From Flavipsychrobacter sp. (GTDB taxonomy: Bacteria; Bacteroidota; Bacteroidia; Chitinophagales; Chitinophagaceae), in the NCBI GenBank assembly GCA_016786615.1, contig JAEUVX010000002.1:372001-436000 (forward strand): a stretch of DNA of 64,000 bases, written 5' to 3'. The position numbers and the translations under genes were made by a program. Positions 17,104-34,759 of the stretch are shown one piece after another. The notes under the pieces were generated by a model. The model worked only from the letters and a program-made list of their open reading frames with translations. It did no database searches and was not told where the DNA came from. Position 1 is the first letter of the stretch. Each line of letters opens with the position of its first letter.

Positions 17104-17202
17104 TTTGCCTTTTTCCATGGTTTTATGTGTATCAGTAAAAATAAGGAATGCAGTAAAATCAATACTTTCAGCACACATCAATTCATATCAAACCATAAAT
17201 CA

Positions 17203-17259: not shown

Positions 17260-17273
17260 CTGAGTCTTTTAAA

Positions 17274-17296
17274 AACACCGCTCGTTGAGCGGTGTT
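17274..17296 (+). terminator. Intrinsic terminator after the tRNA fragment
   Basis: AACACCGCTC (17274-17283) and GAGCGGTGTT (17287-17296) form a perfect 10-bp stem with a GTT loop, followed by TTGCTTTT. It lies 14 bp after the tRNA 3' end. The rest of the 17028-17504 gap holds the arm repeats, the att fragment and the next promoter. Confidence 0.85.
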
Positions 17297-17440
17297 TTGC
17301 TTTTATACGTACCCCAATTCCACTCTACAGTCATTCAACCAAATATTGGGGTGCTTACTAATAAATAACTCTCTATACAATATCATACCCAGCCGGAATT
17401 AGCAGAATCTTCATTATAAATTAAAGACATTTTTATCCTC

Positions 17441-17487
17441 AATATGATAAATATCATATTTTACTGAAAATCGTGATGGTAGTTTTG
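17441..17487 (+). promoter_or_regulatory. Crp/Fnr-type operator and promoter of the NO reductase-like operon
   Basis: The palindrome AATATGAT-AAAT-ATCATATT (17441-17460, core ATGAT-N4-ATCAT) has its centre 33 bp upstream of the centre of the -7 box TAGTTTTG (17480-17487). That places an activator near -41, the class II position. A second dyad-like motif TAAAGA-N8-TCCT begins at 17422. The arrangement is repeated at 19733-19780 and, on the other strand, at 29516-29560. Confidence 0.75.
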
Positions 17488-17504
17488 AAATGAATTAAGG
17501 CAGT

Positions 17505-17909
17505 ATGTTTTTACGTATCTGGATAGTCCTGTTTATAATATTTATTTCTTACACTATCGGTTTGTACATGTTTTGTGATGACGGCACAATACTAAAACCT
17601 GATGAAAATATTATTGCAGGGCGCAATACTTGGCAAGAAAAGAATTGTCAATCATGCCATCAGCTTTATGGATTGGGCGGATACATGGGGCCTGATCTGA
17701 CAAATATTATCAGCACCAAGGGAGTTAACCGAGCTAAAACATTCATAAAATACGGCACCGGGAAAATGCCAGATATGAGCCTTAGTGATGAAGAAGTAAA
17801 TAACCTGATTGCATACTTATCATGGATAGATAATACAGGCAAATCAGAAATAACTCCTGATAAAATACATTGGACAGGCACCTATATCATCAAAGAAAAA
17901 GCATGGTAG
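17505..17909 (+). CDS. Membrane-anchored cytochrome c, NorC-like
   Basis: A 134-aa protein with an N-terminal membrane anchor (about 4-23), then one heme c motif CQSCH (Cys48, Cys51, His52) and a likely axial Met88 in GKMPD. Size and layout match NorC, the electron-entry subunit of cytochrome c-dependent NO reductases. It overlaps the catalytic subunit gene, which supports a complex. It would pass electrons from the periplasm to the heme-copper subunit. The N-terminal Cys24 after the anchor is notable but not in a lipobox. Confidence 0.85.
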   Translation: MFLRIWIVLFIIFISYTIGLYMFCDDGTILKPDENIIAGRNTWQEKNCQSCHQLYGLGGYMGPDLTNIISTKGVNRAKTFIKYGTGKMPDMSLSDEEVNNLIAYLSWIDNTGKSEITPDKIHWTGTYIIKEKAW

Positions 17910-19219
17910 TTAAGTATTATTTCAGATTTATATTATTGTTGTTAATCGCAACCTTATCATTTGGCCTATTATCTTCTTTTGCTTTTCTGTTCCCTGAATG
18001 GTTCAATAATACCATACCATTTCAGCAGCTAAGACCAATGCATGTATCTTCTGCATTGTTCTGGATAGTATCAGGTGCGGTAGGCTGTCTGATAGTCAAT
18101 AGCAACAAGACAATGACGTTTAGTAGTACAAACATTAGTTTAATTAAATCGTTCATGATAATATGGATCATTACAATAGTGGTGGTTTTTATTTTTTACT
18201 CATTAAAACAGTATGGTGGCAGAGAGTATTGGGAATTTCCACCTGTACTAAGTATCCCGATTGTAATAGCATGGATACTGCTGATGATTGGTTATTACAG
18301 GCATTGGCTTTCAATTAAAAACAAAAAGCCATTATACATTATCATGTGGGGTACGGGAATACTATTTTTCTTTATCACGTTTCTTGAACAAAACTTATGG
18401 CATATAGATTGGTTCAGAGAATCATACCTGCGGGAAATAACAGTACAATGGAAAGCAAACGGGTCTATGGTTGGTGCCTGGAACCAAATGATATACGGCA
18501 CTTCGCTCTACATGATGGTAAGAATAAGCGGGAACAAACAAATTGCACAGAACAAGTCTGTTTATTTCTTTTACTTCCTCAGCCTGAGTAATCTGATGTT
18601 TAACTGGGGACATCATATATACAATGTACCAACAGCAGGGTGGGTAAGGCATGTATCGTACGCAATCAGTATGACAGAATGGTTATTCTTCATTAGTATG
18701 ATACGCAGCTTCAAAGGGAAGCTATCAGAGTATCGCAGGCTAAAAAACCTAACAACATACAGGTTCATTATAGCATCTGAATTATGGTTATTTTTCAACC
18801 TGACATTAGCGATTATGATGAGTATACCGGCAATTAACATGTACACACATGGCACACACATTACTGTAGCACATGCAATGGGTACTACTATTGGCATTAA
18901 CAGCATGATACTACTCGGTGCAATTGGCTATTTATTAGGCATTGATGATACATACGGGCGGATAAAACGATTCGTACAATATGGATTTTACATCAGCCAG
19001 ATAAGCCTTATCATATTCTGGATATCGCTTATTGTAGCCGGCATATTAAAGGGATACAGAGGCAGAGTACTCAACATTGATAGCTTTCAGGAAATAATGT
19101 CTCCGGTAATAGGTGCCTTAAAAATATTTTCCATATCAGGCATCGGTGTATTAGCAGGCATGGCGTTAATAAGTATATGTTACTTACAACTTCTCAGAAA
19201 AAAGAAAAAGATTCTATGA
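17903..19219 (+). CDS. NorB-like heme-copper oxidase subunit with altered active-site residues
   Basis: A polytopic protein (438 aa from ATG 17903; an upstream ATG at 17870 adds 11 residues) with about 12 TM helices. Numbering from 17903, conserved parts are RPMHVSSALFW (His47, low-spin heme), NWGHHIYNVP (His237/His238, Cu/FeB-type pair) and YTHGTHITVAHAMG (His316, His319, His324). Where cNOR NorB has HLWVEGVWE, supplying the third FeB His and two Glu, this protein has TVQWKANGSMVGAWNQ. The HGH of NorB TM10 is HAM here. NO reduction is the best guess from NorC, hemerythrin, RIC and nos neighbours, but the catalytic centre must differ from cNOR. Confidence 0.75.
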   Translation: MVVKYYFRFILLLLIATLSFGLLSSFAFLFPEWFNNTIPFQQLRPMHVSSALFWIVSGAVGCLIVNSNKTMTFSSTNISLIKSFMIIWIITIVVVFIFYSLKQYGGREYWEFPPVLSIPIVIAWILLMIGYYRHWLSIKNKKPLYIIMWGTGILFFFITFLEQNLWHIDWFRESYLREITVQWKANGSMVGAWNQMIYGTSLYMMVRISGNKQIAQNKSVYFFYFLSLSNLMFNWGHHIYNVPTAGWVRHVSYAISMTEWLFFISMIRSFKGKLSEYRRLKNLTTYRFIIASELWLFFNLTLAIMMSIPAINMYTHGTHITVAHAMGTTIGINSMILLGAIGYLLGIDDTYGRIKRFVQYGFYISQISLIIFWISLIVAGILKGYRGRVLNIDSFQEIMSPVIGALKIFSISGIGVLAGMALISICYLQLLRKKKKIL

Positions 19220-19716
19220 TGGAAACTTCAAAACCAATAAAAAGAAGTCAGGCGATAGTTCCTTTATCCAGAGATCATCATAACGGATTATTATTGTGCT
19301 GGAAAATTCGGACAGGACTTAAAAACAATATTAGTATTGATAGAATTGCAGCATACATAATCCACGTGTTTGACACAGAACTATATGAACATTTTTACCA
19401 GGAAGAAAAGTATCTATTCCCTTTGATACCCTCGGATAATCCGAAGAATATTCAAGCACACAAAGAACACATTTCTATTTGCAATCAGATAAACATTCTC
19501 AGAAATAAGGTTACAGACAAAGCCGCTTTGAGTATAATTGCTGATGAACTGGAAGCACATATCAGATTCGAAGAAAGAGACCTATTTAATTATATAGAGC
19601 AACATGCAGATACCTTAAAATTGGAGACCGCAGGCAAACTCCTTCAAGAACTACATGAGATATCCTGCATTGATAATTGGGATGACGAATTTTGGATTAA
19701 ACCGCAGACCAAATAA
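19216..19716 (+). CDS. Hemerythrin-like di-iron protein
   Basis: A cytosolic four-helix hemerythrin-domain protein of about 166 aa. Di-iron ligand candidates are in SRDHHNGLL, EHFYQEEKYLF, QAHKEHISI and AHIRFEERDLF, the standard H...HxxxE...H...HxxxD/E order. It lacks the N-terminal ScdA domain of RIC. The start at 19216 is chosen because it overlaps the upstream TGA as ATGA, giving translational coupling with the NorB-like gene. It probably binds O2 or NO, or protects against nitrosative damage. Confidence 0.85.
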   Translation: MMETSKPIKRSQAIVPLSRDHHNGLLLCWKIRTGLKNNISIDRIAAYIIHVFDTELYEHFYQEEKYLFPLIPSDNPKNIQAHKEHISICNQINILRNKVTDKAALSIIADELEAHIRFEERDLFNYIEQHADTLKLETAGKLLQELHEISCIDNWDDEFWIKPQTK

Positions 19717-19732
19717 AAGACATTTATATCTT

Positions 19733-19780
19733 AAATATGACAACAGTCATATTTTCACCAGATTGTGTCGGGTAATTTTG
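19733..19780 (+). promoter_or_regulatory. Crp/Fnr-type operator and promoter of the fasciclin gene
   Basis: The palindrome AAATATGAC-AACA-GTCATATTT (19733-19754) is centred 33 bp upstream of the centre of TAATTTTG (19773-19780), exactly as at 17441-17487. The upstream motif AAAAGA-N8-TCTT at 19715-19732 also recurs, with the same 8-bp step from TCTT to ATGA. Confidence 0.75.
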
Positions 19781-19817
19781 TATCATAAATTCATCTATTA
19801 CATCAAACGTAAACAAT

Positions 19818-20375
19818 ATGAAAAGTACACTTAAGGTAATGATGATTGCTGCAATATCATTTACCTCATGCAACAGTTCTGACACTCAAAATTCAACTCC
19901 TGCAGAAACAGAAAATGCACTGGCTTCTACCACTTCATCTGCTGAAGACAACGTTTCGCAGCATGATGTGGTGCAGGTTGCTATTGGTAGTAAAGACCAC
20001 ACTACACTTGTAGCAGCTGTAAAGCAGGCAGAACTCGTTGAACCACTGCGCAAAACAGGACCGTACACTGTGTTTGCGCCCACAAACGAAGCCTTCAGCA
20101 AATTACCTGCCGGCACAGTCGACGGGCTTATGAAACCTGACCAAAAAGATGCTTTAGCAGATATCCTGCAATACCATGTATCTGTTGGCATATATAAAGA
20201 AGATATGTTTCAAGATGGACAGGTAATAGGTCAGGTAAACTCTCAGAACATAACAATCAGCAAAAAAGATGGTAAAATAAAAATTAACGGAACGGCAAAT
20301 ATTTTGGCAGCCATACCAGCATCAAATGGCCTGATATACGTAATTGACCAAGTGTTATTACCTCCTCAAAAATAA
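19818..20375 (+). CDS. Fasciclin-domain lipoprotein
   Basis: A 185-aa protein with an SPII signal (lipobox FTSC, Cys about 19), a Thr/Ser-rich linker and one fasciclin (FAS1) domain. Markers are KTGPYTVFAPTNEAFSKLP (H1-like block), LQYHVSVGIYKEDM and the C-terminal NGLIYVIDQVLLPP. It is anchored in the envelope. FAS1 lipoproteins recur in Bacteroidota denitrification clusters; a role in protein interaction or redox protein assembly is assumed, not shown. Its own promoter carries the shared operator, so it belongs to the same regulon as the NO and N2O genes. Confidence 0.88.
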   Translation: MKSTLKVMMIAAISFTSCNSSDTQNSTPAETENALASTTSSAEDNVSQHDVVQVAIGSKDHTTLVAAVKQAELVEPLRKTGPYTVFAPTNEAFSKLPAGTVDGLMKPDQKDALADILQYHVSVGIYKEDMFQDGQVIGQVNSQNITISKKDGKIKINGTANILAAIPASNGLIYVIDQVLLPPQK

Positions 20376-20444
20376 ATATGAAATATCCGCAAACTATTCC
20401 AATCTGATATTTGTTTATTTTAGTAGTTTATCAAACAACATCAA

Positions 20445-20885
20445 ATGTTTTCAAAATCTTGTGAATACGGCATCAGGGCAATTATCTATATAGCAGCAGA
20501 AAATGAAAAAGGCAAAAAGGTAGGCATAGCTGAAATATGCGAAAACATTGAAGCACCGGCTCATTTTACAGCCAAGATACTGCAAATACTCAGCCGAAAC
20601 AGAATAGTAAACTCTCAGAAAGGAGTTAATGGGGGGTTTTATTTAGATGAATACCAACGCGATTTAAAGTTAATAGAAATCGTTACAGCCATAGATGGCA
20701 AAGCAATATTTACAGGATGTGGATTGGGTTTGAAACAATGTTCAGAATCCAATCCATGTCCTTTACACAACAAATTTAAAGCAATCAGAAACGATTTGAA
20801 AAAAATGCTGGAAAGCACAACTATAGATGAACTAGGCAAAAACCTCAAGAAAGGTAAATCAGTATTAAAAACCATTAAGGTTTAA
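20445..20885 (+). CDS. Rrf2-family regulator with Fe-S cysteine triad (NsrR/IscR-like)
   Basis: A 146-aa winged-helix regulator beginning MFSKSCEYGIRAIIYIAAE, the standard Rrf2 N-terminus. Cys92, Cys99 and Cys105 (C-x6-C-x5-C) lie where IscR and NsrR bind an Fe-S cluster. The location among NO-related genes suggests an NO- or redox-sensing repressor. Candidate targets are the AAAAGA-N8-TCTT dyads at 17422, 19715 and 20901. The gene has no obvious ATGAY-N4-RTCAT site of its own. Confidence 0.88.
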   Translation: MFSKSCEYGIRAIIYIAAENEKGKKVGIAEICENIEAPAHFTAKILQILSRNRIVNSQKGVNGGFYLDEYQRDLKLIEIVTAIDGKAIFTGCGLGLKQCSESNPCPLHNKFKAIRNDLKKMLESTTIDELGKNLKKGKSVLKTIKV

Positions 20886-20900
20886 AAAAATTATCTTAAT

Positions 20901-20920
20901 AAAAGATAAATTTGTCTTTT
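20901..20920 (+). promoter_or_regulatory. Promoter with overlapping dyad, candidate Rrf2 operator
   Basis: The dyad AAAAGA-N8-TCTTTT (20901-20920) covers the -7 box TAAATTTG (20907-20914) of the next gene. Overlap with the core promoter fits repression. Related AAAGA-N8-TCTT motifs precede the NO reductase-like and fasciclin promoters. Confidence 0.5.
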
Positions 20921-20936
20921 ATTAAACCTATGCACA

Positions 20937-22178
20937 ATGTTTGAAAAAAGAAAACGACAATGGATAACCTTATCTGTTGTAAACCTGATGATAGTTGCAA
21001 TACTTGGCCTGACGCTAAGAAGTAAAATACTTTTCAGCATACCTTTCCTTGATTTTAAACACGTCCTTCATGCGCATTCACATTTTGCTTTTGGCGGTTG
21101 GGTTAGTTTAGCATTGCTTACACTCATGTCGTATGAGCTGCTTCCGGATACCAAAAGAGCAAAAACTATCAATACGCTATTAAGGCTAATAACTATAAAC
21201 GCATTCGGCATGTTAATCAGCTTTATATTTCAGGGATATGGGCTCTACTCTATTCTTTTTTCTACAGTCTTTATTTTCACAACCTATGTTTATGCCTGGA
21301 TATTTATAAAGGAAATAAAAAAGATAAGCATAAACAAAACAATCAAACTATTATCAACAGCAGCGGTAATATACATGGCACTGTCATCTGTTGGCCCGTT
21401 TACATTAGCATATTTGTTAGCGGGAAAATCCGGTAATATCATTTTGTATAAAGACGCAGTATATACTTACCTGCATTTACAGTACAATGGTTTTTTCACG
21501 ATGGGAATATTGGCTATAATGTTTAATAAAATTATCAAGACCAGCGTTGAGATGAATGAAGCTCGCACCTATAGCTTCGCAAACATGCTGAATATATCAA
21601 TTATCCCTTCACTGTTTTTGTGCTACCTGTGGCACTACCCCAATATACCTGTGAGAATTGTATCTATAATCGGGGCATTGACTGTACTGTTATCTTTTAT
21701 ACAACTTACCATTTTACTAAAACCGCTGAATAAATACGCAAACACAAATAGCATCACATTCAAGTACCTTTTCAGGCTTTCTTTTCTTGCCCTCATGCTG
21801 AAACTTGTATTGCAATCGTTAACAGTATTCCCAGCAATTGGCGAGGCTGTATTCAATAACAGGCCTGTAATAATAGGGTTCCTGCACCTTGTACTGCTTT
21901 GTTTTGTAACACTATACATCATTGCTCACTACATACAAACGGGCATATTCAAAGACAATGGAATAACCAACCTATCAATAATTGTATTTACAGCAGGAGT
22001 ATTAATAAACGAGCTGGTGTTGATGGTACAAGGGCTGGAAATAATGCTGATGACAAACAGCGTAATATTTACATGGCTATTATGGTATGCAGCTATATGC
22101 CTGTTTCTGGGAAGCTTTTTATTACTTATTGCACGAGGCATTACAATTGTAACTGAAGCTAAAAAAACACTTCACTGA
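20937..22178 (+). CDS. Polytopic membrane protein with His-rich helix, unknown
   Basis: A 413-aa inner-membrane protein with about 12 predicted TM helices. Near the start of TM2 it carries KHVLHAHSHFAFGGWVSLAL (His42, 45, 47, 49), reminiscent of the heme-ligand helix of heme-copper oxidases and of NnrS-type proteins. A second His/Asn motif, YTYLHLQYNGFFTMG, lies near residue 180, and CYLWHYPNIP further on. The oxidase-type paired HH motif was not found. It may be a heme- or NO-binding membrane protein accompanying the NOR-like genes. I do not recognise a named family. Confidence 0.6.
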   Translation: MFEKRKRQWITLSVVNLMIVAILGLTLRSKILFSIPFLDFKHVLHAHSHFAFGGWVSLALLTLMSYELLPDTKRAKTINTLLRLITINAFGMLISFIFQGYGLYSILFSTVFIFTTYVYAWIFIKEIKKISINKTIKLLSTAAVIYMALSSVGPFTLAYLLAGKSGNIILYKDAVYTYLHLQYNGFFTMGILAIMFNKIIKTSVEMNEARTYSFANMLNISIIPSLFLCYLWHYPNIPVRIVSIIGALTVLLSFIQLTILLKPLNKYANTNSITFKYLFRLSFLALMLKLVLQSLTVFPAIGEAVFNNRPVIIGFLHLVLLCFVTLYIIAHYIQTGIFKDNGITNLSIIVFTAGVLINELVLMVQGLEIMLMTNSVIFTWLLWYAAICLFLGSFLLLIARGITIVTEAKKTLH

Positions 22179-22217
22179 TTACACAAACAATATGTTCATA
22201 CTTAAAATATAATAAAG

Positions 22218-23147
22218 ATGGAATCAAGTATTCTGATAGATGTAACTAAGATGTTACCGAGCGAAAAACACCCTTCAATATTTAATGCATTCGATAGCAT
22301 AGAACCCGGCGCGTCTGTAATCATACACAACGACCACGACCCCAAGCCAGTGTATTATCAGTTGCTTGGGCTGCGTGGAAATTGCTTTACATGGTCATAT
22401 CTTAAAAACGGCCCTGATGTATGGGAGGTTGAAATAAAGAAAAATGAACTCTCAAACGGGAAAGAAACCATAGGCCAAATAGTAAGCGGCGATATATGCA
22501 AAGCCGAAGTGTTTAAAAAAATGGGAATAGACTTTTGTTGTGGCGGCAAGAAAACACTGGAGCAGGTTTGTAAGGAAAAAGGATTGTCTGAAGCAGCGGT
22601 AAGAGAAGCATTGGAAGCACAACATGAGCAGGGTTTCTTCAACCTAGACTTTAATAGTTGGAAACCTTCGTTTCTTGCAGACTTTATTACCAATCAGCAT
22701 CACACATTCGTTCGGGAGAATACACCAATACTCAGGGAACTATCTGCAAAAGTAAGCATCAAGCATGGCGACAAATATCCGTACATGAAAACTGTGAACG
22801 AAAAACTAAATGAACTACTCAATGAACTTGAAACACACATGAAGAAAGAAGAATACATACTCTTTCCTTATATCCGTCAGATGGAAGCTACCAAGCTAAA
22901 GGCTGAGGCATTTAACAGCGTTCAAGACCCAATATGGATGATGGAACAGGAGCATGACATTGCCGGCGAATTAATTCATGAGATAAACGCTCTTTGTAAT
23001 AACTATGAAGAGCCCGTAGATGCATGCAACAGCCACAAACTGCTGTTGTATAAACTGGAAGAATTTGAAAATGACTTGTATCAACACATACACCTCGAAA
23101 ACAACATTTTATTTCCAAAGGCTTTGGATTTAGAAAAAATGATGTAG
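22218..23147 (+). CDS. ric: Iron-sulfur cluster repair di-iron protein (RIC) with N-terminal DUF2249
   Basis: A 309-aa fusion. Residues 1-75 look like DUF2249 (GASVIIHNDHDPKPVYYQLL). Residues about 85-135 are the ScdA_N domain with the DFCCGG motif (IDFCCGGKKTLEQVC). The rest is a hemerythrin-like di-iron domain (NQHHTFVRENTP, THMKKEEYILFPYI, EQEHDIAGELIHEI, HIHLENNILFPKA). RIC/YtfE/ScdA proteins repair NO-damaged Fe-S centres. Typical RIC proteins are about 220-245 aa; the extra length is the DUF2249 part. It is the last rightward gene of the cluster and converges on nosY. Confidence 0.9.
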   Translation: MESSILIDVTKMLPSEKHPSIFNAFDSIEPGASVIIHNDHDPKPVYYQLLGLRGNCFTWSYLKNGPDVWEVEIKKNELSNGKETIGQIVSGDICKAEVFKKMGIDFCCGGKKTLEQVCKEKGLSEAAVREALEAQHEQGFFNLDFNSWKPSFLADFITNQHHTFVRENTPILRELSAKVSIKHGDKYPYMKTVNEKLNELLNELETHMKKEEYILFPYIRQMEATKLKAEAFNSVQDPIWMMEQEHDIAGELIHEINALCNNYEEPVDACNSHKLLLYKLEEFENDLYQHIHLENNILFPKALDLEKMM

Positions 23148-23162
23148 TCTAATACACAACAC

Positions 23163-23197
23163 AAAAAAGAGAGAAGTATTATGCTTCTCTCTTTTTT
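23163..23197. terminator. Bidirectional intrinsic terminator
   Basis: AAAAAAGAGAGAAG (23163-23176) pairs perfectly with 23184-23197 over a 7-nt loop. A and T runs at the ends let it work on both strands, for ric (stop 23147) and nosY (stop 23199). Confidence 0.9.
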
Positions 23198-23198
23198 C

Positions 23199-25923: not shown

Positions 25924-25925
25924 GG

Positions 25926-26932: not shown

Positions 26933-26946
26933 AATTGAAAACAATT

Positions 26947-26979
26947 ATGGCAGTACACTACACTGTAGCGTACTGCCAT
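26947..26979 (-). terminator. Hairpin between nosZ and the next operon gene, attenuator or RNA stabiliser
   Basis: ATGGCAGTAC (26947-26956) and GTACTGCCAT (26970-26979) form a 10-bp stem with a 13-nt loop. Read in the gene direction it is followed by AATTGTTTTC and then the next start codon. It may lower expression of the maturation genes relative to nosZ or protect the nosZ mRNA end. Confidence 0.65.
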
Positions 26980-26987
26980 TGTGAATA

Positions 26988-28961
26988 TTATTTTGATGCT
27001 ACAGCCTTAGGAGCTGCATCGCCTGTACCATATTTCAGTGGCACATTGCTACCCTTTGGTGATACCCTCAGGTAACCTTGCATTTCCTGGTGTAGTGCAG
27101 AACAGAAGTCTGTACAGTAGAAAGGATAAATACCTGTTCTGTCCGGTACAAATTTCAGTGTAGATGTTTCACCCGGCATTATAAGTAATTCGGCATTTGC
27201 GGCGTGTTTGATTGCAAAACCATGCGGCACGTCCCAATCTTGCTCCAGGTTCGTAACATGGAAGTAAACTTCATCGCCAACATATACACCTTCAATATTA
27301 TCCGGTGTCAGGTGAGAACGGATAGCTGTCATATAGATATCCACCCTGTTACCTGTTCTTACAACCTTGGTTGCCTTTTCACCCATTGCCACATAAGGGT
27401 GTTTATTTTTATTGATGTCAAATATCTTTACACTTCTGTCTTTTATCACCTTTGCATCAATAGCCTGTGCATAGTGCGGCTCACCAATAGTCGGGAAGTC
27501 AAGTATCAGTTGCATTTTATCGCCTGTAATATCATACAATTGTGCAGACTGCGCAAGTTCAGGACCTGTTGGCAGGTAACGGTCTTTAGTGATTTTATTA
27601 TACGCAATCACATATTTGCCCCAAGGTTTTTTAGTATCGCCACCAGGCACACATAAGTGTCCTATTGAGTAGTAGGTAGGTACACGGTCTAACACTTTTA
27701 CATCTTTAATGCTCCATTTCACCACCTCTGAAGACAGGAAGAATGAAGTATATGCATTGCCTTTACCATCAAACTCGGTGTGCAAAGGTCCAAGTCCCGG
27801 TTTTTGTACTTCACCATGCAGTGCCGCTTCATATTTCACTACCGGTATGCCATAATAATCTCCTTCAAATGTTTTGGCATTAATAGCGCTTGTCAGTTTG
27901 TTGAATGAGAAGACCGGTATCAATGCAGCAAGTTTACCACTACCTACTATGTATTCACCTGTAGGGTCAACGTCACATCCGTGCGGAGATTTAGGACATG
28001 GTATCATATACACCATATCTTTCAGCTCTGCCGGATCAAGCACCAGCACTTCTTCTTCCAGTTTTGAAGATGCAGAGTGCGTTTCTTCATTCCACGTATT
28101 ATGATAATAACGTGTTTTCATTTTTGTGCCTTTACCTGCTTTCACATACTCTTCTGCTTTCTTCCAGTTTACGGCTACTATAAAGTCTTTGTCTTTTTGA
28201 GATGCGTTTACTTCCAGCAATGTATTTGCCTGCTCAGTATTATATGTTGAAAAAAAGAACCAACCATGAGAAGGGCCTTTTCCAGCTCTTGACAAGTCTA
28301 GACTCATACCCGGCAATGCAATCTGAAATGCAATTTTCATGTTACCGCTGTTTTGGTCCACATTTATAAATGAGGCGACGCTTTTAAAGTTTTCCTTAAA
28401 GCTGCTGATAGGCACATCAGCTTCGCCCAACGGCACACTGAAACGGGTACCTGCTACCACATACTCCGTATTCTCGGTGATGAACGGAGAAGAGTGGTTA
28501 CCACCACTGTTCGGTATTTCAAGTATCTCTTCTGTTTTAAAAGTACTCAGGCTGATGCGCGCTACACGTGGTGTATTGTTGGCATTGGCAAACAGCCATT
28601 TACCATCATGTTCACCATTTGTTTGTGACAATGCTAGGTGGTGTTCATCATCCCATGGCACAAAGCCTGCAGTCGTATTCAGCATTGGTTTTGTTTCTTC
28701 GCTGAAACCGTAACCATTCTCGGGGTTAACCGAAAAAACAGGGATAACTTTCAGCATTCTTCCCGATGGGATACCGTAAACAGAAACCTGTCCGCTAAAA
28801 CCACCGGAGACGAAATTGTAAAACTCATCGTATTTGCCTGGTGCTACATATACCTTTGACGCCGCATCGCCCTGCACTACAGAGCCGGTATCTTTCATTT
28901 TACAGCTCTGGCCGGCTATTGCTAAACCTACCGCACAGAGCATTAATTGGTAACTTTTCAT
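26988..28961 (-). CDS. nosZ: Nitrous-oxide reductase NosZ, clade II (Sec-type)
   Basis: A 657-aa enzyme reducing N2O to N2. The N-terminus (MKSYQLMLCAVGLAIAGQSC) is a Sec-type signal without twin arginines, possibly a lipid anchor at Cys20, which together with the cluster layout marks the clade II type. CuZ His-bearing segments are DDEHHLALSQTNGEHDG, GGNHSSPF, PHGCDVDP, GPLHTEFDGKGNAYTSFF and GEPHYAQAI. The C-terminal CuA domain has YCTDFCSALHQEM (Cys616, Cys620, His624, Met627). All expected copper ligands appear present. It follows the cytochrome c gene by 29 bp. Confidence 0.97.
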   Translation of the reverse strand: MKSYQLMLCAVGLAIAGQSCKMKDTGSVVQGDAASKVYVAPGKYDEFYNFVSGGFSGQVSVYGIPSGRMLKVIPVFSVNPENGYGFSEETKPMLNTTAGFVPWDDEHHLALSQTNGEHDGKWLFANANNTPRVARISLSTFKTEEILEIPNSGGNHSSPFITENTEYVVAGTRFSVPLGEADVPISSFKENFKSVASFINVDQNSGNMKIAFQIALPGMSLDLSRAGKGPSHGWFFFSTYNTEQANTLLEVNASQKDKDFIVAVNWKKAEEYVKAGKGTKMKTRYYHNTWNEETHSASSKLEEEVLVLDPAELKDMVYMIPCPKSPHGCDVDPTGEYIVGSGKLAALIPVFSFNKLTSAINAKTFEGDYYGIPVVKYEAALHGEVQKPGLGPLHTEFDGKGNAYTSFFLSSEVVKWSIKDVKVLDRVPTYYSIGHLCVPGGDTKKPWGKYVIAYNKITKDRYLPTGPELAQSAQLYDITGDKMQLILDFPTIGEPHYAQAIDAKVIKDRSVKIFDINKNKHPYVAMGEKATKVVRTGNRVDIYMTAIRSHLTPDNIEGVYVGDEVYFHVTNLEQDWDVPHGFAIKHAANAELLIMPGETSTLKFVPDRTGIYPFYCTDFCSALHQEMQGYLRVSPKGSNVPLKYGTGDAAPKAVASK

Positions 28962-28990
28962 ATTATTTTATTAAGGCGTGAAATATTCAT

Positions 28991-29473
28991 TTAGTTTTTG
29001 CCGTCGTTATGTCTCATATACTCCAGCACATTTCTTGCCTCAGCGTCTGATAAATTTTGGTTAGGCATTCTTACCATACACACTTCCATCATTGCTTTTG
29101 CTTCTGCATCTTTATCCAGCATTTCATCTACATTGGTCACAAAGTTCATTATCCATTCAGGTGTCCTTCTGTCAGTTACACCCTTCCAACCCGGGCCTAC
29201 AAGTTTTTCGTCTGTAAGCTTATGGCAAGAACCACATTTTACATCATAAACGGTTGTGCCTTCTTTTACCATGTTTGCATCCAATGGGTGGGTAAGCTCT
29301 ACGTTTGTGAACTTTCCTATGCCTTTATCGTTAGTTGACTTATTGGGGTCAACATATTCATTCTTACCGGGGTCTGGTGTTTCATCCCTTACAGATTTTT
29401 CTTCACCACCGCCACAGCTGTAGATAAATGTGCTTGCTGCGAGCATCAGCAACATGATATTTTTTTTGTTCAT
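28991..29473 (-). CDS. Cytochrome c lipoprotein, likely electron donor to NosZ
   Basis: A 160-aa lipoprotein (IYSCGGG, lipobox Cys about 20) with one heme c motif, CGSCH, in YDVKCGSCHKLTDEKLVGPG. The likely axial Met is in VRMPNQNLSDAEA. It is first in the nos operon and directly upstream of nosZ, so it probably passes electrons to the CuA site of NosZ. Its promoter carries the shared operator. Confidence 0.9.
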   Translation of the reverse strand: MNKKNIMLLMLAASTFIYSCGGGEEKSVRDETPDPGKNEYVDPNKSTNDKGIGKFTNVELTHPLDANMVKEGTTVYDVKCGSCHKLTDEKLVGPGWKGVTDRRTPEWIMNFVTNVDEMLDKDAEAKAMMEVCMVRMPNQNLSDAEARNVLEYMRHNDGKN

Positions 29474-29515
29474 AGCATTTAATATTTATTAGTTAAGAAT
29501 TAGTGCTTTACCTGA

Positions 29516-29560
29516 CAAAAATCTACTCTGTTAGCTTATTAAAGTATGACCAATGTCATA
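29516..29560 (-). promoter_or_regulatory. Crp/Fnr-type operator and promoter of the cytochrome c-nosZ operon
   Basis: The dyad TATGAC-CAAT-GTCATA (29545-29560) is centred 33 bp upstream, on the minus strand, of the centre of GATTTTTG (29523-29516), a one-mismatch TAnnTTTG. Further upstream AAAATA-N8-TCTTTA repeats the accessory motif, again with 8 bp from TCTT to ATGA. The same spacing occurs at 17441-17487 and 19733-19780. Confidence 0.75.
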
Positions 29561-29591
29561 ATAAAGATAAAAAGGTATTTTAAAGTTGTAT

Positions 29592-29993
29592 TTATTTAAT
29601 AAATATATTTTTCTGCTTTTCAATTTTTTGACCCTCATGATTAATTGCAGCTTTTATAATTAACTGCAAATCACTACTATTTGACAAGTCTGTATTATAA
29701 ACCCAATACTTATCCACCCGAATATCAGTTCCGTGAGTATGCTCTTCCATTGAGTATAATGTAGTCCCAACAGGTGACAATATTTGTACTGAATAACCAT
29801 GAATACCTTCAGTAGAAGTAATTCTTGCATCAATATATATGGTATCTCCTTTGCCATATACTTTTCCATCGGGCGGGGAGTTGATATCTATTTTTGCTTG
29901 TTGAACCAACTCGTGGTTGTGATCATTTTTTTGACAAGAAATTGAGGCTATTAAAACAAATGCGGATGAGAAGATTAGAATAGAGCGAATCAT
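29592..29993 (-). CDS. Small lipoprotein with Ig-like beta domain, unknown
   Basis: A 133-aa protein with an SPII signal (ASISC, Cys about 20), a His-rich stretch NDHNHELVQQ, then strands typical of an Ig-like fold (INSPPDGKVYGKGDTIYIDA). His residues also occur at EEHTHGTD. His clusters near the N-terminus and in the middle could bind copper or another metal. It is last in the leftward run 32807-29592, 5 bp from the preceding gene. No named family is recognised. Confidence 0.65.
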   Translation of the reverse strand: MIRSILIFSSAFVLIASISCQKNDHNHELVQQAKIDINSPPDGKVYGKGDTIYIDARITSTEGIHGYSVQILSPVGTTLYSMEEHTHGTDIRVDKYWVYNTDLSNSSDLQLIIKAAINHEGQKIEKQKNIFIK

Positions 29994-29998
29994 AATTA

Positions 29999-30913
29999 CT
30001 ATTTGAAAATTATATAAATACCTGAATCCAGTTTATAATTGTTTATTACCATTCTGTCAGCATATTTCTGATAAACAGGTTGATGAAAATTGAACTGGAA
30101 GCCAACGTTTTTGTAATAACATTGAAAACCTGCTGACAGATATACAAAAGTCCCTCCGGTCATAGTATTCCTTAACTCTGTAGCATAATTTTCGTAATCA
30201 CAGGAAGTGTTTTCAAATCTTCCCCCTATCAGCGGAACAACATTAAATGCTTTGAGTGAGAGATATCTGTATCCTTGCAACCCAAACTGCAATCTGTTTC
30301 CAAATTTGTATTGGTATGTATTAGGAGTTGTTACTGCATAAGATGCATCAAGATTAATTCCGTTATTTTCGTATTGTATAGTATAATTAGTATTAAACAA
30401 TACATCTACCGATTTTGTACCTGCCTGCATGTTCGGCAAACCGTCTGCTTTACTAATTGCTGCATTATCATACTTGCCGGTCGGTAGCTTTATACCACCA
30501 CCAACAAGCACTATATGCTTTAGTTTGCTATCTGTCAACCGTTTCGTCAGACAATAATTTGCCAATATTGTTGCATCACCAATACCATTAACACGCTGAT
30601 TATTATTTACTTCAAAACGATTGTTTATGATATAAGGTAAAAAAGCGAATAATTGTAACCTGTCACCTAAACTATACCTGCCCCATAACTGTAGTGTAGT
30701 ATAATACTCTCTTGATGTATTTACAGGCTGGCTGGCTGTTGCGTGTCTTCCGGTAAAATCCCGCATCTGATACTGAAGCCCCACAAAGCCGCCTTTTGAC
30801 TGTGGCAGTAAACCCAAATATTGGTTCGATGCACCGCCACCACAAACCCCACACGCCAGTGTACTAAATGTTACTATCAATGAAACCCCTGTCGTAAGCA
30901 TCAGCTTTTTCAT
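29999..30913 (-). CDS. Outer-membrane beta-barrel protein with N-terminal CGVCGGG motif
   Basis: A 304-aa protein with a Sec signal. The predicted mature start reads ACGVCGGGASNQYLG, a short Cys/Gly motif at the lipobox position that could be lipidated or bind metal. The remainder is a chain of amphipathic beta strands (GFVGLQYQMRDFTG, FVYLSAGFQCYYKNVGFQF) ending in a barrel-type strand, FKIIYIGS read backwards, that closes with IYIIFK. It is likely an outer-membrane transporter, and the MbnP/MbnH neighbours suggest copper traffic. The upstream dyad at 30968-30985 implies the shared regulon. Confidence 0.7.
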   Translation of the reverse strand: MKKLMLTTGVSLIVTFSTLACGVCGGGASNQYLGLLPQSKGGFVGLQYQMRDFTGRHATASQPVNTSREYYTTLQLWGRYSLGDRLQLFAFLPYIINNRFEVNNNQRVNGIGDATILANYCLTKRLTDSKLKHIVLVGGGIKLPTGKYDNAAISKADGLPNMQAGTKSVDVLFNTNYTIQYENNGINLDASYAVTTPNTYQYKFGNRLQFGLQGYRYLSLKAFNVVPLIGGRFENTSCDYENYATELRNTMTGGTFVYLSAGFQCYYKNVGFQFNFHQPVYQKYADRMVINNYKLDSGIYIIFK

Positions 30914-30967
30914 AACACAAAGCTAATAGCATCAATTAAGGATAATCATGTCTTTAATTAGTTCGTT

Positions 30968-30985
30968 ACATGATTTTAATCATGT
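30968..30985 (-). promoter_or_regulatory. Crp/Fnr-type operator upstream of the outer-membrane protein gene
   Basis: A perfect dyad ACATGAT-TTTA-ATCATGT (30968-30985) 55 bp from the ATG at 30913. No TAnnTTTG lies at the 33-bp offset seen elsewhere; TAGCTTTG at 30925-30918 is 55 bp away centre to centre, two helical turns further, but very close to the ATG. Activation geometry is unclear. Confidence 0.55.
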
Positions 30986-31010
30986 TTTGCAATGAGTCCT
31001 ATAATTAATA

Positions 31011-32054
31011 TTAAGGCTTGCTGAAATTCGGATTAGTGATAAATGCAGAATCAGTTAGTGTTTTCAAGAATGCAATCAATTGTTTTTGTTCATAGGCATT
31101 CAATTGCAATCCGTTTTCTTTACCGGGCTTGGTCATTACTGGGTCTAATGTTGCAGATTTTCGAACTTTCGAATTATAAAATTCTACAACCTCCTCCAAT
31201 GTCTTAAAACGTCCATCATGCATGTAACTATTTCGCAACGCAACATTTCTAAGATTAGGTGTCCGAAACTTCCCTAAATCTTTAGCATCGCCAGTAACCA
31301 TAAACAAACCTTTATCCTTATCTGATGTATATATGCTATCCAACCCATTGTTATGAAAACTATTATCTGTAGTGAGCAATGTTACATGACAGTGAAAACA
31401 ATCACCTTTTTCGCTAAAAAATAATTCAGCACCCTTTTTTTCATCATAGCTCATGTCCTCAATTCCTTTTATGTACCTGTCATACTTACTACCATCCGAA
31501 ATCATAGTTCGTGTAAATTGTGCCAGGGCATAGCCAATTTCTTTATGGGTAATATAATCTACGTTGTAACACTTTTTGAATAACTCCTTGTAAGTAGTAC
31601 TGTTATTCATTTTGTTCAAATCTGTTGCAAAAAACTCTCGTGTTTCAAATTGCATTACATCTTCAAGCCCTCCTTTTTTTGAACCATTCCACATAAAATT
31701 ATTATACCATGCCATATTAACGTGTGAAAGTACAGGCATGCCATTCACCATACCCGGCACCGTAAACCCATAAGACTGAAGGTGACAATTTGCACATGCC
31801 CTGCCATCATTAGACAATATAGGGTCGTAATATAGCATCCTGCCAAGCTCTATACGTTCTTTATACGGTTTATTATCATCAGGTATTTTCATTTCCGGGA
31901 AGCGGGCCGGATGATATATACTATATGGCGTTAGCGGGTTAGCTGGATTTTCAGTATTTAATGGATAATCCGGGCTATCGGGCTTGCAAGAAACCAGCAA
32001 TGCAATAAAGCATATTAGTGTACAAATGACCTGCACAATCAGCTTCTTTATCAT
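31011..32054 (-). CDS. Di-heme cytochrome c peroxidase/MauG-family lipoprotein, MbnH-like
   Basis: A 347-aa lipoprotein (LLVSC, Cys about 23) with two heme c motifs, CANCH (ACANCHLQSYGFTVPG) and CFHCH (GDCFHCHVTLLTTD), and the family segment GKFRTPNLRNVALRNSYMHDGR. It belongs to the bacterial di-heme peroxidase/MauG family. The gene 19 bp upstream encodes an MbnP-like protein, and the pair matches the MbnP/MbnH arrangement, in which MbnH oxidises a Trp of MbnP to kynurenine. The role here, probably periplasmic copper handling, is inferred. Confidence 0.85.
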   Translation of the reverse strand: MIKKLIVQVICTLICFIALLVSCKPDSPDYPLNTENPANPLTPYSIYHPARFPEMKIPDDNKPYKERIELGRMLYYDPILSNDGRACANCHLQSYGFTVPGMVNGMPVLSHVNMAWYNNFMWNGSKKGGLEDVMQFETREFFATDLNKMNNSTTYKELFKKCYNVDYITHKEIGYALAQFTRTMISDGSKYDRYIKGIEDMSYDEKKGAELFFSEKGDCFHCHVTLLTTDNSFHNNGLDSIYTSDKDKGLFMVTGDAKDLGKFRTPNLRNVALRNSYMHDGRFKTLEEVVEFYNSKVRKSATLDPVMTKPGKENGLQLNAYEQKQLIAFLKTLTDSAFITNPNFSKP

Positions 32055-32072
32055 AAAATATAATTTTACCTG

Positions 32073-32807
32073 TTAATGTATTTGGCTGAAAACATCTTGT
32101 CCATTTACAATAATTTTACGCATCAAAACCTCATTACCCATACTGTATACTCCATCTGAACTAAAATCATATTCTGCTGGTTTTCTGAACCATTCGTTAA
32201 TATTCATCATAATGTTGAGGTTTGTTATTTGGTTAGCTCTTACATCAAGGTTACAAGCAAAACCTGCTTCGCAATGAAACCCCGACTTACCTACATGCAA
32301 TGCGAAGCCATTTACTACTGCAGCATCTTTCCAGTGTCCTTCAAGTTTCAGAAAATGGTACCCTCCACCCATAGCATCCGGCCAACCCATGTTAGTATTT
32401 TCAATTGTCGCGGGTAAGCCGTATGATATATTCTGAAAAGGTAATAGCCCTATAGTAAGTGCCACAGAATCATATACACCTGCTAATAACGTAGGGATTA
32501 ACATGACAGAAGAATATTGATGTTTAGCATCAATGTAATATGCACTATCATTCTGCTGAACTATGTTATTATTCTTGTATAGTCGGATATTGCTGATGTA
32601 ATATTGAAGCTTACTGATGCTGTAAACATTTCCTGCTTCATTATGATACTTAATACTATCCCATAATAATAGCTGGTTGTTTACACTGTGATTTATAATG
32701 ATTGATAAACCACCGTACGATGATATTGCAGGGCTATAACTAATATCTCGATGAGAGCACCCTACTATCGTATAAAAACATAGCACTAGAAGTATAACCT
32801 TGCCCAT
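32073..32807 (-). CDS. MbnP-like copper-binding lipoprotein
   Basis: A 244-aa lipoprotein (IVGC, Cys about 17). Family features include SKLQYYISNIRLYK, NMGWPDAMGGGYHFLKLEGHW and FALHVGKSGFHCEAG, plus two Cys-bearing turns. MbnP proteins are periplasmic copper-binding partners of MbnH. The Trp in NMGWPDAM is a candidate modification site. Two tandem operator dyads precede it. A link to copper supply for NosZ is reasonable but unproven. Confidence 0.8.
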   Translation of the reverse strand: MGKVILLVLCFYTIVGCSHRDISYSPAISSYGGLSIIINHSVNNQLLLWDSIKYHNEAGNVYSISKLQYYISNIRLYKNNNIVQQNDSAYYIDAKHQYSSVMLIPTLLAGVYDSVALTIGLLPFQNISYGLPATIENTNMGWPDAMGGGYHFLKLEGHWKDAAVVNGFALHVGKSGFHCEAGFACNLDVRANQITNLNIMMNINEWFRKPAEYDFSSDGVYSMGNEVLMRKIIVNGQDVFSQIH

Positions 32808-32823
32808 TGTACAATTATTTTAT

Positions 32824-32890
32824 GCAAGGTAGATGGCAAATATTTCTCTGATAAATGATAATTATCATTTATCAGGATGACAATTATCAT
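32824..32890 (-). promoter_or_regulatory. 28-bp palindrome and tandem operator upstream of the MbnP-like gene
   Basis: 32848-32875 is a perfect 28-bp palindrome with ATGAT-AATT-ATCAT at its centre. A second dyad, ATGAC-AATT-ATCAT, lies at 32877-32890, its centre 22 bp from the first (two helical turns). On the minus strand TACCTTGC (32831-32824), an imperfect -7 box, lies 34 bp from the first centre. The second dyad overlaps the end of the next gene. Confidence 0.65.
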
Positions 32891-34686
32891 TTTACAACCA
32901 ATGGAATTTCAAGTTTATTAAGTGACTCCAAAGCACTCTTAAGGTCTTCTTTCATTAATGCAATCTGATTATCAGTTTCATTTTTCAGGTAAGGTATCAA
33001 CTGTTTATAGTAATCAATTCCATTAATCAGGTTTGCTTTAAATGTTTGATAGTATTTAGTTTGCTTAGGTGTTAAATCAATCTTTTTTATCTCGTTCCTT
33101 AAGTAATCGATATACAAATTCAATTCATTAATAAACATATTAGGACGTTTTAATGAATTCAGCACGTTAATTCTACCGTAAATATGGCTCACCATTTGAG
33201 ATAACGAAAAAACGCCTGAGAAGTATGCCAGATTTGGCCCGGGACAGATAGTAACAGCCGATAATTTATGAGACAATGGTAATCCCTCTTTTAATAATGC
33301 CGGTGTACTTAATCCCTCACAAAGGCAATCCTTCTCCGTTACATCATTCAGCATGCTTTCCAATAAATCAACGGGCAGATTTTTTTCTTTAAGTTGTTTA
33401 ATCTTTAAATGTTGGTATTGCCTTGAAGCTGTACAAATAGGTTCTTCAGTAAATTCTGTATTTGAAATAAGGTATTTTTTATAACAAGGACTTCCTGGCC
33501 TATGCTTAGCTATCCGTTCTCTTCTTTGAGATTCTGATGAACTATTTCTGAAATTATTGAATGGCACCCCTAATGGCGATGCATGGCTTAAATAATAGTC
33601 TTCTTTTTTTGCAGCTACCAGTTTTGCTAATGTATAATCATCAACGTTTGTGGCTTCCGGAACAAGCAGAAATGGGCTTCCCCAACCTGTGCCATCTACC
33701 ATATAATGTTCAAAAAGAAAGTTATTTTCAGCAGATGTTCCTATACCACCTTGTACAGTAATTTTTATATTTGGCTGTTCTACGAACGACTGTATTCCTT
33801 TATCCGTATGTGCAACACTGCATAAAGCATATATATCAGAAAACAACTCACTCTTCTTATTCTTAAATTCTTCAAGAATAGGACCAAGTAAATACCCTTC
33901 CGTAGCAAAAGCATGTCCTCCGCAATTAAGCCCCGATTCAATTCGGAATTCAGATACCCAAAGTCCTTTCTTTGCCAGTATTTTACCCTGTACCAGGGCT
34001 GAACGATAGTCACTTACTTTCAGTATAATTCGTTTTTTAAGGCTTCCGTTTTCATCAGGGAAAAAGTCTTTAAATGTCTCAATATAATTATACAAACGCG
34101 GGTTATATCCGGCAGAAAACACTATTGATGAGTTGAGTTCGCTGTTTGCATAGCCTCTCAAAGAAGATAATGCATCAGAATATTCTACCGGCAATAATTC
34201 ACCATTTGCATTAGTATTGATTTTATCAACCTTTGCCATGATATTGACGTCTATTGACCCTGCCTGAATTATAGTTCTCAATTCATTTTCTAAGGCGGTT
34301 CTGACATCTCCTGCTTCGAGGTTAATCATTTGAAGATACTTACGTTTTGATGCCGAATGATCCGGCAATAACTCAAAGTATTTTACTATATCATTATCAT
34401 CATCAAAAGGAAGGTTACTTAATTCTGAAACTTGGGTATTGATTATTTTGTTAATAAGGTTTAAGTATGCTGTAATACGTTTCGCCCTGTAATCAGTGTC
34501 AGATACAGGAATAGGAATATACGGTTCGTTTATTTCATTACAATAGTATTTTCTCATATTCTCAACCAACTCATCGTCCATGATTGAGATGACAGAAGAG
34601 ATGCCATATCTGGCAACTTTTACAGGTGTATCGATTGAGTAGCCGATACCTAATACGGGTATATGGAACTTATGTAATGCTGACAT
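32887..34686 (-). CDS. 599-aa nitronate monooxygenase-like FMN-barrel protein with Cys motifs
   Basis: A soluble 599-aa protein. The central part resembles NMO/FMN-dependent TIM barrels: FRIESGLNCGGHAFATEGYL (cf. the xGxAGGH motif), ITVQGGIGTSAENNFL, and DGTGWGSPFLLVPEATNVDD (cf. the GTRFxxTPE motif). The C-terminal third adds Cys residues in PICTASRQYQ, KDCLCEG and TICPGPNLAYFSG that could hold an Fe-S cluster, then helical segments. NMO proteins are usually 320-380 aa, so the extra domains are unusual. Its promoter carries the shared operator geometry, placing it in the anaerobic/NO regulon. Substrate unknown. Confidence 0.6.
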   Translation of the reverse strand: MSALHKFHIPVLGIGYSIDTPVKVARYGISSVISIMDDELVENMRKYYCNEINEPYIPIPVSDTDYRAKRITAYLNLINKIINTQVSELSNLPFDDDNDIVKYFELLPDHSASKRKYLQMINLEAGDVRTALENELRTIIQAGSIDVNIMAKVDKINTNANGELLPVEYSDALSSLRGYANSELNSSIVFSAGYNPRLYNYIETFKDFFPDENGSLKKRIILKVSDYRSALVQGKILAKKGLWVSEFRIESGLNCGGHAFATEGYLLGPILEEFKNKKSELFSDIYALCSVAHTDKGIQSFVEQPNIKITVQGGIGTSAENNFLFEHYMVDGTGWGSPFLLVPEATNVDDYTLAKLVAAKKEDYYLSHASPLGVPFNNFRNSSSESQRRERIAKHRPGSPCYKKYLISNTEFTEEPICTASRQYQHLKIKQLKEKNLPVDLLESMLNDVTEKDCLCEGLSTPALLKEGLPLSHKLSAVTICPGPNLAYFSGVFSLSQMVSHIYGRINVLNSLKRPNMFINELNLYIDYLRNEIKKIDLTPKQTKYYQTFKANLINGIDYYKQLIPYLKNETDNQIALMKEDLKSALESLNKLEIPLVVK

Positions 34687-34715
34687 TCGAATAAAAATCT
34701 TGAAGAAATACTGAG

Positions 34716-34759
34716 CAAAAGTCAGCTAGTTTATTTTCAGGATATATGATTTATATCAG
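34716..34759 (-). promoter_or_regulatory. Crp/Fnr-type operator and promoter of the 599-aa protein gene
   Basis: TGAT-TTAT-ATCA (34747-34758; full core ATGAT-N4-ATCAG) is centred 33 bp from the centre of GACTTTTG (34723-34716), a one-mismatch -7 box on the minus strand. The ATG follows 30 bp after the -7 box. Confidence 0.65.

Follow-up and report, generated by a model that had tools for sequence, protein, structure and literature searches.

We identified a palindromic dyad, ATGAY-N4-RTCAT, that recurs at two fixed distances from the -7 boxes of nitric oxide (NO), nitrous oxide (N2O) and copper genes in a 64,000-nucleotide (nt) stretch of Flavipsychrobacter sp. DNA (assembly GCA_016786615.1, contig JAEUVX010000002.1, positions 372,001-436,000 of the forward strand; "the window" here means this whole stretch). 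We consider it likely that this dyad is the operator of an Fnr-like activator, most likely the protein encoded at G000:C3:148522-149238 in the same genome, that an Rrf2-type protein binds a second dyad, AARGAYA-N4-TRTCYT, as its operator, and that the two make up a dual regulon with full expression at low oxygen plus NO. Many Bacteroidota carry clade II nosZ, yet how they switch this gene on, and with it the removal of NO and of the greenhouse gas nitrous oxide, is little known. The dyad, its two spacings and the candidate regulators permit predictions in other genomes.

The own genome (G000) comprises 2.96 Mb in 15 contigs and is 91% complete. Throughout, the basis is sequence statistics (motifs, spacings, footprints and linkage), so that operators and regulators are predicted ones, and distances between dyads, operators and -7 boxes are given centre to centre. 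Because the two proteins fail the defining tests of their namesakes (operator sequence and NCBIfam cut-offs), we refer to them as "Fnr-like" and "Rrf2-type."

The dyad and its spacing to -7 boxes

The exact dyad occurs six times in the window (17444, 19737, 29546, 30970, 32855 and 32877), against 0.52 +/- 0.71 per window, with a maximum of 3, in 200 first-order Markov sequences. A preliminary description of this DNA had reported the same six sites and a one-base variant at 34746, all of which we confirmed, and its estimate of less than one chance occurrence in 64 kb agrees with the Markov figure. It had also placed the dyad 33 bp from the -7 box at four promoters and 34 bp at a fifth. These distances are exact (33 bp for 17444, 19737, 29546 and 34746; 34 bp for 32855), and both peaks recur genome- and family-wide. 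Its assignment of the boxes to the TAnnTTTG type held in full for only two of the five, norC and fasciclin; those of nos and of the 599-amino-acid (aa) gene have the form GAnnTTTG, and that of MbnP/MbnH is TAnnTTGC. The exact Bacteroidota sigma-A -7 box, TAnnTTTG, is found at norC, fasciclin and, in addition, the 304-aa gene. The closest relatives (L159-L169) likewise have GAnnTTTG at 33 bp in their nosZ promoters, and TAnnTTGY is given as a flavobacterial -7 motif, SM5, in PMC9723704.

A second geometry, beyond those described before, is seen at 30970 (minus strand), which lies 55 bp from TAGCTTTG, and at 32877, which lies 56 bp from TACCTTGC. The latter dyad forms a tandem pair with 32855, 22 bp away, and both share the one box TACCTTGC. 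All six exact dyads fit the helical register, with 55-56 bp falling two turns beyond 33-34 bp. The two dyad positions are 22 bp, or about two helical turns, apart, as a Crp-type activator needs; 33-34 bp is the class II position, at about -40, and 55-56 bp the class I position, at about -62. The spacing thereby supports the earlier proposal of a putative class II Crp/Fnr-type activator with ATGAY half-sites working at Bacteroidota -7 boxes. The features of the window are as follows (coordinates, strand, description; operators are predicted).

17424..17439, +, Rrf2-type operator AAGACATTTTTATCCT of the norC promoter; 52 bp to -7 box, 19 bp to Fnr-like dyad
17444..17457, +, Fnr-like dyad ATGATAAATATCAT, norC promoter, class II position
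17480..17487, +, -7 box TAGTTTTG, 33 bp from dyad centre, norC promoter
17505..17909, +, cytochrome c (Cytochrome_CBB3), norC by context
17870..19219, +, COX1-family protein, by context norB; TTG listed as start, overlapping norC, though the true start may be further in
19177..19716, +, hemerythrin-domain protein
19717..19732, +, Rrf2-type operator AAGACATTTATATCTT upstream of fasciclin gene, 52 bp to -7 box
19737..19750, +, Fnr-like dyad ATGACAACAGTCAT, fasciclin promoter
19773..19780, +, -7 box TAATTTTG, 33 bp from dyad, fasciclin promoter
19818..20375, +, fasciclin-domain protein
20445..20885, +, Rrf2-family regulator (PF02082) with Cys6, Cys92, Cys99 and Cys105
20903..20918, +, Rrf2-type operator AAGATAAATTTGTCTT 3' of rrf2, before the 413-aa gene; not followed by a -7 box
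20937..22178, +, 413-aa protein, no Pfam or NCBIfam match; presumably NnrS-like
22218..23147, +, RIC/ScdA-type iron-sulphur repair di-iron protein
26988..28961, -, nosZ, Sec-dependent type; we take it to be clade II
28991..29473, -, cytochrome c, directly upstream of nosZ
29516..29523, -, -7-like box GATTTTTG (GAnnTTTG), 33 bp from dyad
29546..29559, -, Fnr-like dyad ATGACATTGGTCAT, cytochrome c-nosZ promoter
29564..29579, -, Rrf2-type operator AATACCTTTTTATCTT with two mismatches; 52 bp to box and 19 bp to dyad, which it precedes
29999..30913, -, 304-aa protein, no Pfam match; similar genes by eye in G140 and G325
30918..30925, -, -7 box TAGCTTTG of 304-aa gene
30939..30954, -, Rrf2-type operator AAGACATGATTATCCT, 25 bp to -7 box, over the -33 region
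30970..30983, -, Fnr-like dyad ATGATTAAAATCAT, 55 bp to -7 box, class I position
31011..32054, -, MbnH-like di-haem protein (CCP_MauG)
32073..32807, -, MbnP
32824..32831, -, -7 box TACCTTGC, TAnnTTGY type (TAnnTTGC)
32855..32868, -, Fnr-like dyad ATGATAATTATCAT of the MbnP/MbnH promoter, 34 bp to -7 box
32877..32890, -, outer Fnr-like dyad ATGATAATTGTCAT of the tandem pair, 56 bp to box TACCTTGC
32887..34686, -, 599-aa protein, no Pfam or NCBIfam match
34716..34723, -, -7-like box GACTTTTG (GAnnTTTG), 33 bp from one-mismatch dyad
34746..34759, -, one-mismatch dyad ATGATTTATATCAG (CTGATATAAATCAT on the minus strand), before 599-aa gene
36464..37039, +, 191-aa Crp/Fnr-type protein, the regulator candidate of the preliminary description

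A search of the whole genome, as had been suggested earlier, bears out the spaced form of the motif and not the bare one. The bare dyad occurs at 31 sites, compared with 39 for a reversed control, which speaks against a specific operator; with the count at control level, the raw genome-wide number is uninformative and the signal lies in clustering and spacing. Six of the 31 sites fall within 15.4 kb. With TAnnTT boxes, 9 of the 31 sites are spaced at 33 bp, 4 at 34, 5 at 55 and 1 at 56, while any other distance accounts for at most 3. Three of these 19 pairs are probably due to chance: L062 (34 bp) and L013 (55 bp) are coding, and 29546 at 55 bp (plus strand) has the wrong orientation. We then extended the comparison to 98 genomes of Chitinophagaceae (the own genome and 97 others), searching for dyad and box with a gap of 8-38 and with the reversed pattern as control. 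This search returned 224 spaced matches (forward and reverse) versus 73 for the control; among the 150 matches listed, 70 were at 33 bp, 19 at 34, 8 at 32, 7 each at 44 and 45, and 0-5 elsewhere.

The dyad also leaves a strong footprint upstream of nosZ. Of the best 30 nosZ loci, window included and all from one family, 28 carry an exact dyad no more than 1.5 kb upstream of the gene (27 at -560 to -780), and the total of 39 dyads compares with 0.35 expected. An exact dyad is followed at 33 bp by a -7-like box in 21 loci (3 boxes perfect, 18 with one mismatch), and two further promoters pair a one-mismatch dyad with a box, one of these loci (L163) being among the 28. Six loci have an exact dyad without a box, and one (L170, in G140) has no dyad. 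Across the order, a close nosZ is present in 173 of 396 genomes.

These counts bear on whether the dyads could be chance palindromes or a Fur-like iron motif, a reading we regard as very improbable. The genome-wide count at control level and the AT-richness of the palindromes would suit it, as would the site at 32855, which reads ATGATAATTATCAT; only 0.5 dyads are expected in the window, however, and neither the spacing peaks at 33 and 55 bp nor the nosZ footprint fits. Moreover, the inner bases of a Fur box do not vary, unlike the inner four bases of the dyad.

Sites in relatives support the predicted regulon of nor, nos, fasciclin, MbnP/MbnH and 599-aa genes put forward in the preliminary description. 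In G197, a dyad lies 33 bp from the box TACTTTTA ahead of the 599-aa homologue, and another lies 33 bp from GACTTTTG ahead of cytochrome c-nosZ. In G140, a dyad 55 bp from TTCTTTTG precedes the 304-aa homologue, and in G325 two dyads stand before the 599-aa homologue, in a divergent gap, without a matching box. The dyads before MbnP and hemN in G197 and before hemN in G140 had no box with at most one mismatch. Genes resembling the 599-aa gene by eye lie in nor/nos stretches of G197, G140 and G325, and the one in G140 likewise has no Pfam match.

Within the own genome, a dyad with a box also precedes a second MbnH-like gene (L063), KatG (L060), thioredoxin (L066), a 129-aa protein (L002, TAAGTTTG at 33 bp), an FAD enzyme (L007), a short-chain dehydrogenase (L061) and a gene without a Pfam match (L057) that we take to be group III truncated-globin-like. 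The predicted regulon would reach beyond NO, N2O and copper genes to cbb3 oxidase genes, KatG and thioredoxin. This wider regulon, like the 55-56 bp geometry and the Rrf2 gene with its operator, goes beyond the preliminary description.

A phage-type integrase (15825-17027; Arm-DNA-bind_5, Phage_int_SAM_5, Phage_integrase) lies just before the norC promoter. The stretch 17200-17260 resembles, by eye, a piece of a tRNA, but ARAGORN found no tRNA in 16900-17500. The nor/nos cluster may border an integration site.

A second operator and the Rrf2-type protein

At the norC, fasciclin and cytochrome c-nosZ promoters, the second dyad, AARGAYA-N4-TRTCYT, lies 19 bp upstream of the first, with two mismatches at the last of the three. 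Exact copies are also found at 20903 and 30939. A window scan that allowed two mismatches gave 33 matches versus 25.5 expected, so that only exact matches are useful. The putative Rrf2 operator stands beside the Fnr-like dyad in four window promoters, and the positions are mirrored: the three class II promoters have it 52 bp from the -7 box, the class I promoter before the 304-aa gene 25 bp from it. A single Rrf2 gene turned up in the own genome, at 20445-20885; it starts 70 bp after fasciclin, with which it may be co-transcribed. Cysteines 6, 92, 99 and 105 of its product are kept in all 15 sequences extracted from 30 loci; the protein scores below the NCBIfam cut-offs for NsrR (41.5 bits, cut-off 182) and IscR.

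The exact Rrf2 pattern is at control level genome-wide, so its assignment rests on the flanks of rrf2 genes. We examined 250-bp flanks of 30 rrf2 genes, window included. The top dyad, AAAGR with a gap of 8, is the same element (18-fold, 8 loci), AAGAY-N6 is enriched too, and a match to ARGAYANNNNTRTCYT with at most one mismatch occurs in 16 of the 30. In 29 sources, 25 rrf2 loci among them, a 20-base form has 6 full matches versus none expected and 12 one-off matches versus 1.3. The operator faces rrf2 in 13 of the 30 loci, and in 12 of these 13 a TAnnTTTG follows 28-30 bp on, which puts the operator over the -33 region of the rrf2 promoter. Four of the seven distinct genome places of the exact pattern are within the window. 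The Rrf2-Fnr pairing upstream of nosZ is shared with G197, G381 and G325, at a spacing of 19-21 bp. A pairing at fasciclin in G140 was read by eye, with GTGAT as the Fnr-like half and the box TAGTTTTA at 33 bp.

An Rrf2-type protein need not be a repressor. Some Rrf2 proteins activate (IscR, for example), and the constant distances of 52 and 19 bp at the three class II promoters could mark a co-activator site from which Rrf2 aids Fnr-like binding 19 bp away. We think this unlikely: a protein bound over the -33 region upstream of rrf2 (12 of 13 loci), or 25 bp from the 304-aa box, should block polymerase. Twelve of the 30 loci also have an operator copy 3' of rrf2 (20903-20918, L027, L034, L036, L037, L039, L040, L041, L043, L049, L050 and L055), in several cases near the next start codon; such copies might serve as roadblocks within the operon or as RNA elements.

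Candidate readers of the dyad

Nine Crp-type genes in the own genome exceed the Pfam cut-off. One, a 245-codon frame at G000:C3:148522-149238, encodes a protein with a Crp-type sensor domain and a Crp helix-turn-helix (PF00027, PF13545, PF00325), an N-terminal CxxC and the helix VGTATETAIRLLSEF; it scores 90.1 bits with the NCBIfam Fnr model, below the cut-off of 228. The recognition helices of the other eight are different by eye. A dyad starts 17 bp past the stop codon of this Fnr-like gene, before a 183-aa gene (no Pfam match) and a metal-transporting P-type ATPase. Another dyad at the same locus, beside cbb3-oxidase genes, lies upstream of ccoS (FixS family), after which comes a COX1-FixO gene.

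Linkage of the dyad to fnr-type genes was found in three locus sets (22, 25 and 80 loci) that overlap and are not independent (L270 and G308:C109, for example). Around 22 fnr-type loci there are 32 dyads versus 2.2 expected; dyad-box pairs there number 19 at 55 bp and 4 at 33 bp. The dyad lies within 250 bp of the gene at 15 of 25 Fnr-type loci and at none of 5 loci of more distant relatives. The third set consists of the best 80 of 550 named-record fnr loci (Chitinophaga, Sediminibacterium, Hydrotalea, Taibaiella, Ignavibacteria and others). Here we ranked dyads of five-base half-sites with gaps of 2-8, seen at least 8 times, by their fold excess over base composition. ATGAY-N4 came top (58 versus 2.8 expected, 17-fold, in 42 of the 80 loci), the next dyad reached 12-fold, and the canonical TTGAY dyad was found only twice. 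In this set, 17 dyad-box pairs have a spacing of 55-56 bp and 11 one of 33-34 bp. The fnr locus of a cultured relative, Sediminibacterium ginsengisoli DSM 22335 (L272), is among those with the dyad. In G197 and G381, the Fnr-like gene sits within the nor/nos/rrf2 cluster itself.

We compared the cysteines of 25 Fnr-type proteins (L076-L100, with L016 and L076 denoting the own protein), numbered by the 245-codon open frame. Cys22, Cys68 and Cys121 are present in 25 of 25 and Cys19 in 24, whereas the third N-terminal cysteine, Cys31, is present in only 16. Cys121 presumably corresponds to Cys122 of Fnr. From these patterns, most family members may hold a cluster with the rearranged ligands Cys19, Cys22, Cys68 and Cys121. 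A close relative (53% identity) occurs in L291, a record titled Phycisphaerales MAG, through either gene transfer or a binning error.

The preliminary description had proposed a different regulator, an NO-responsive activator encoded locally at 36464-37039 (the 191-aa Crp/Fnr protein). Its gene is 1.7 kb from the last dyad, and it has a Crp-type helix with E, S and R residues (KPESLSRLRARI). Its orthologues at >50% identity, however, are confined to 3 of the 97 other genomes (G171, G119 and G221), and its best matches in the dyad-bearing G197 and G325 reach only 35-36% identity and are encoded outside the nor/nos clusters. The spaced dyad, in contrast, is family-wide and tracks fnr-type genes by position, which makes the 191-aa protein an improbable reader.

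A broader alternative is that several Crp-type proteins, the Fnr-like protein and response-regulator-Crp fusions among them, share the dyad, that the signal varies by genome, and that the own Fnr-like protein is maybe just one reader among them; we count this as possible, with some doubt. The number of spaced pairs per genome averages 3.52 where a strict Fnr-type protein is present (n=25), 2.07 with weaker relatives only (n=60) and 0.92 with none (n=13), the corresponding controls being 0.84, 0.70 and 0.77 (strict versus none, p = 0.007). The fusions carry the helix GTAKESAIR, near-identical to GTATES-IR, and are probably additional readers. One fusion locus (L312 in G350) includes a dyad 55 bp from TACTTTTG, and L307 (in G332), which encodes a Crp protein of 234 codons with N-terminal cysteines, includes one 56 bp from TACCTTGC. 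Against sharing in the own genome, a single protein of the Fnr-like type is found there at E <= 1e-12, the other eight helices differing as noted, and four of the five fusion loci looked at (L308, L309, L310 and L313, but not L312) lack a dyad. The fusion genes L308, L310, L312 and L313 adjoin a small frame that resembles, by eye, the 129-aa L002 gene.

Besides the bare-dyad count, several findings weigh against the dual regulon as proposed, with the Fnr-like protein as the dyad's reader. The excess in genomes with weaker relatives only (2.07 versus 0.70) means that other Crp proteins must also read the dyad, and neither strict versus weaker (p = 0.058) nor weaker versus none (p = 0.068) is a sharp difference. 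Of the 80 fnr loci, 38 lack an exact dyad within 2.5 kb; among Chitinophaga, 19 of 23 fnr loci are without one and 4 have it. The Fnr-like protein of G381 lacks Cys68, and its helix, VGTATATVIRLL, lacks the conserved glutamate. At 30 loci of norB homologues, 8 have an exact dyad with a box and 4 a one-mismatch dyad with a box, but 2 have an exact dyad without a box and 16 have neither an exact dyad nor a one-mismatch dyad with a box. As to the second operator, only 4 of the 30 nosZ loci (window included) have the Rrf2-Fnr arrangement upstream of the gene, besides the G140 fasciclin case. The exact Rrf2 pattern occurs genome-wide 6 + 6 times versus 4 + 7 for the control. Finally, none of the 12 operator copies 3' of rrf2 has a -7 box 10-60 bp beyond it, the one box seen being at 74 bp (L039).

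Proposed mechanism and known systems

Under the preferred reading, the Fnr-like protein, its iron-sulphur cluster intact at low oxygen, would bind the first dyad and recruit RNA polymerase. The Rrf2 protein (20445-20885) would bind the second dyad and repress at both of its places: at class II promoters by occupying the expected site of the polymerase alpha C-terminal domain, and at the 304-aa gene, with its class I promoter, by sitting over the -33 region. Rrf2 would let go once its cluster reacts with NO, and full expression would then need low oxygen and NO together. Sensing of oxygen and NO is suggested by the cysteines and the gene content. More tentatively, and at somewhat less than even confidence, we see at denitrification promoters in this group of Bacteroidota a mirrored two-input gate of fixed geometry, in which a class II activator goes with Rrf2 at 52 bp and a class I activator (55 bp) with Rrf2 in the -33 slot, and whose activator family reads the shifted half-site ATGAY and may in most members have rearranged ligands.

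Fnr-type activators sense oxygen and control cbb3 oxidase and denitrification genes, and the Fnr site is TTGAT-N4-ATCAA. Fnr itself binds an oxygen-labile [4Fe-4S] cluster through four cysteines, three of them N-terminal and one near residue 122. The Fnr-like protein resembles Fnr, FnrL, Anr and FnrP of Proteobacteria in its cNMP-like domain, Crp helix-turn-helix and N-terminal CxxC plus later cysteine, and the systems share the TGA-N6-TCA core and the class II and class I positions. It differs in its predicted half-site, ATGAY, in its cysteines (the third N-terminal one in only 16 of 25, Cys68 in 25 of 25 but not in G381) and in apparently working with TAnnTTTG-type promoters at 33 and 55 bp. 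For comparison, PMC1274295 gives the sites CTTGATnnnnATCAAG for DNR and TTGACnnnnGTCAA for HcpR.

With NsrR, an NO-sensing repressor, the window protein shares the Rrf2 domain and three closely spaced C-terminal cysteines, and its gene adjoins RIC and NO genes; it differs in a fourth invariant cysteine at position 6 and in its putative operator, AARGAYA-N4-TRTCYT. The NsrR operator is given as gATGyAT-N5-ATrCATc in PMC1274295, and the flanks of the 30 rrf2 genes enrich AAAGR-N8 and AAGAY-N6, not an operator of that type. HcpR, placed in the Crp/Fnr type in PMC1274295, is described for Bacteroides and Porphyromonas as a haem-binding activator of nitrosative-stress genes with hcp as its main target (PMC13370916). 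The predicted window regulon differs in comprising nor, nos, cbb3 and copper-protein genes.

The closest parallel in logic is offered by the E. coli nrf and hcp promoters, which are jointly controlled by Fnr and NsrR: a low-oxygen activator and an NO-relieved repressor act on one promoter. There the operators, phylum and sigma factor are different, and the window adds fixed mirrored spacings. We found no description of these operators, of the Bacteroidota promoter geometry or of the mirrored arrangement among the open-licence PMC papers that our searches listed. The regulatory logic is known, while the operators, the promoter geometry and the mirrored arrangement appear to be new.

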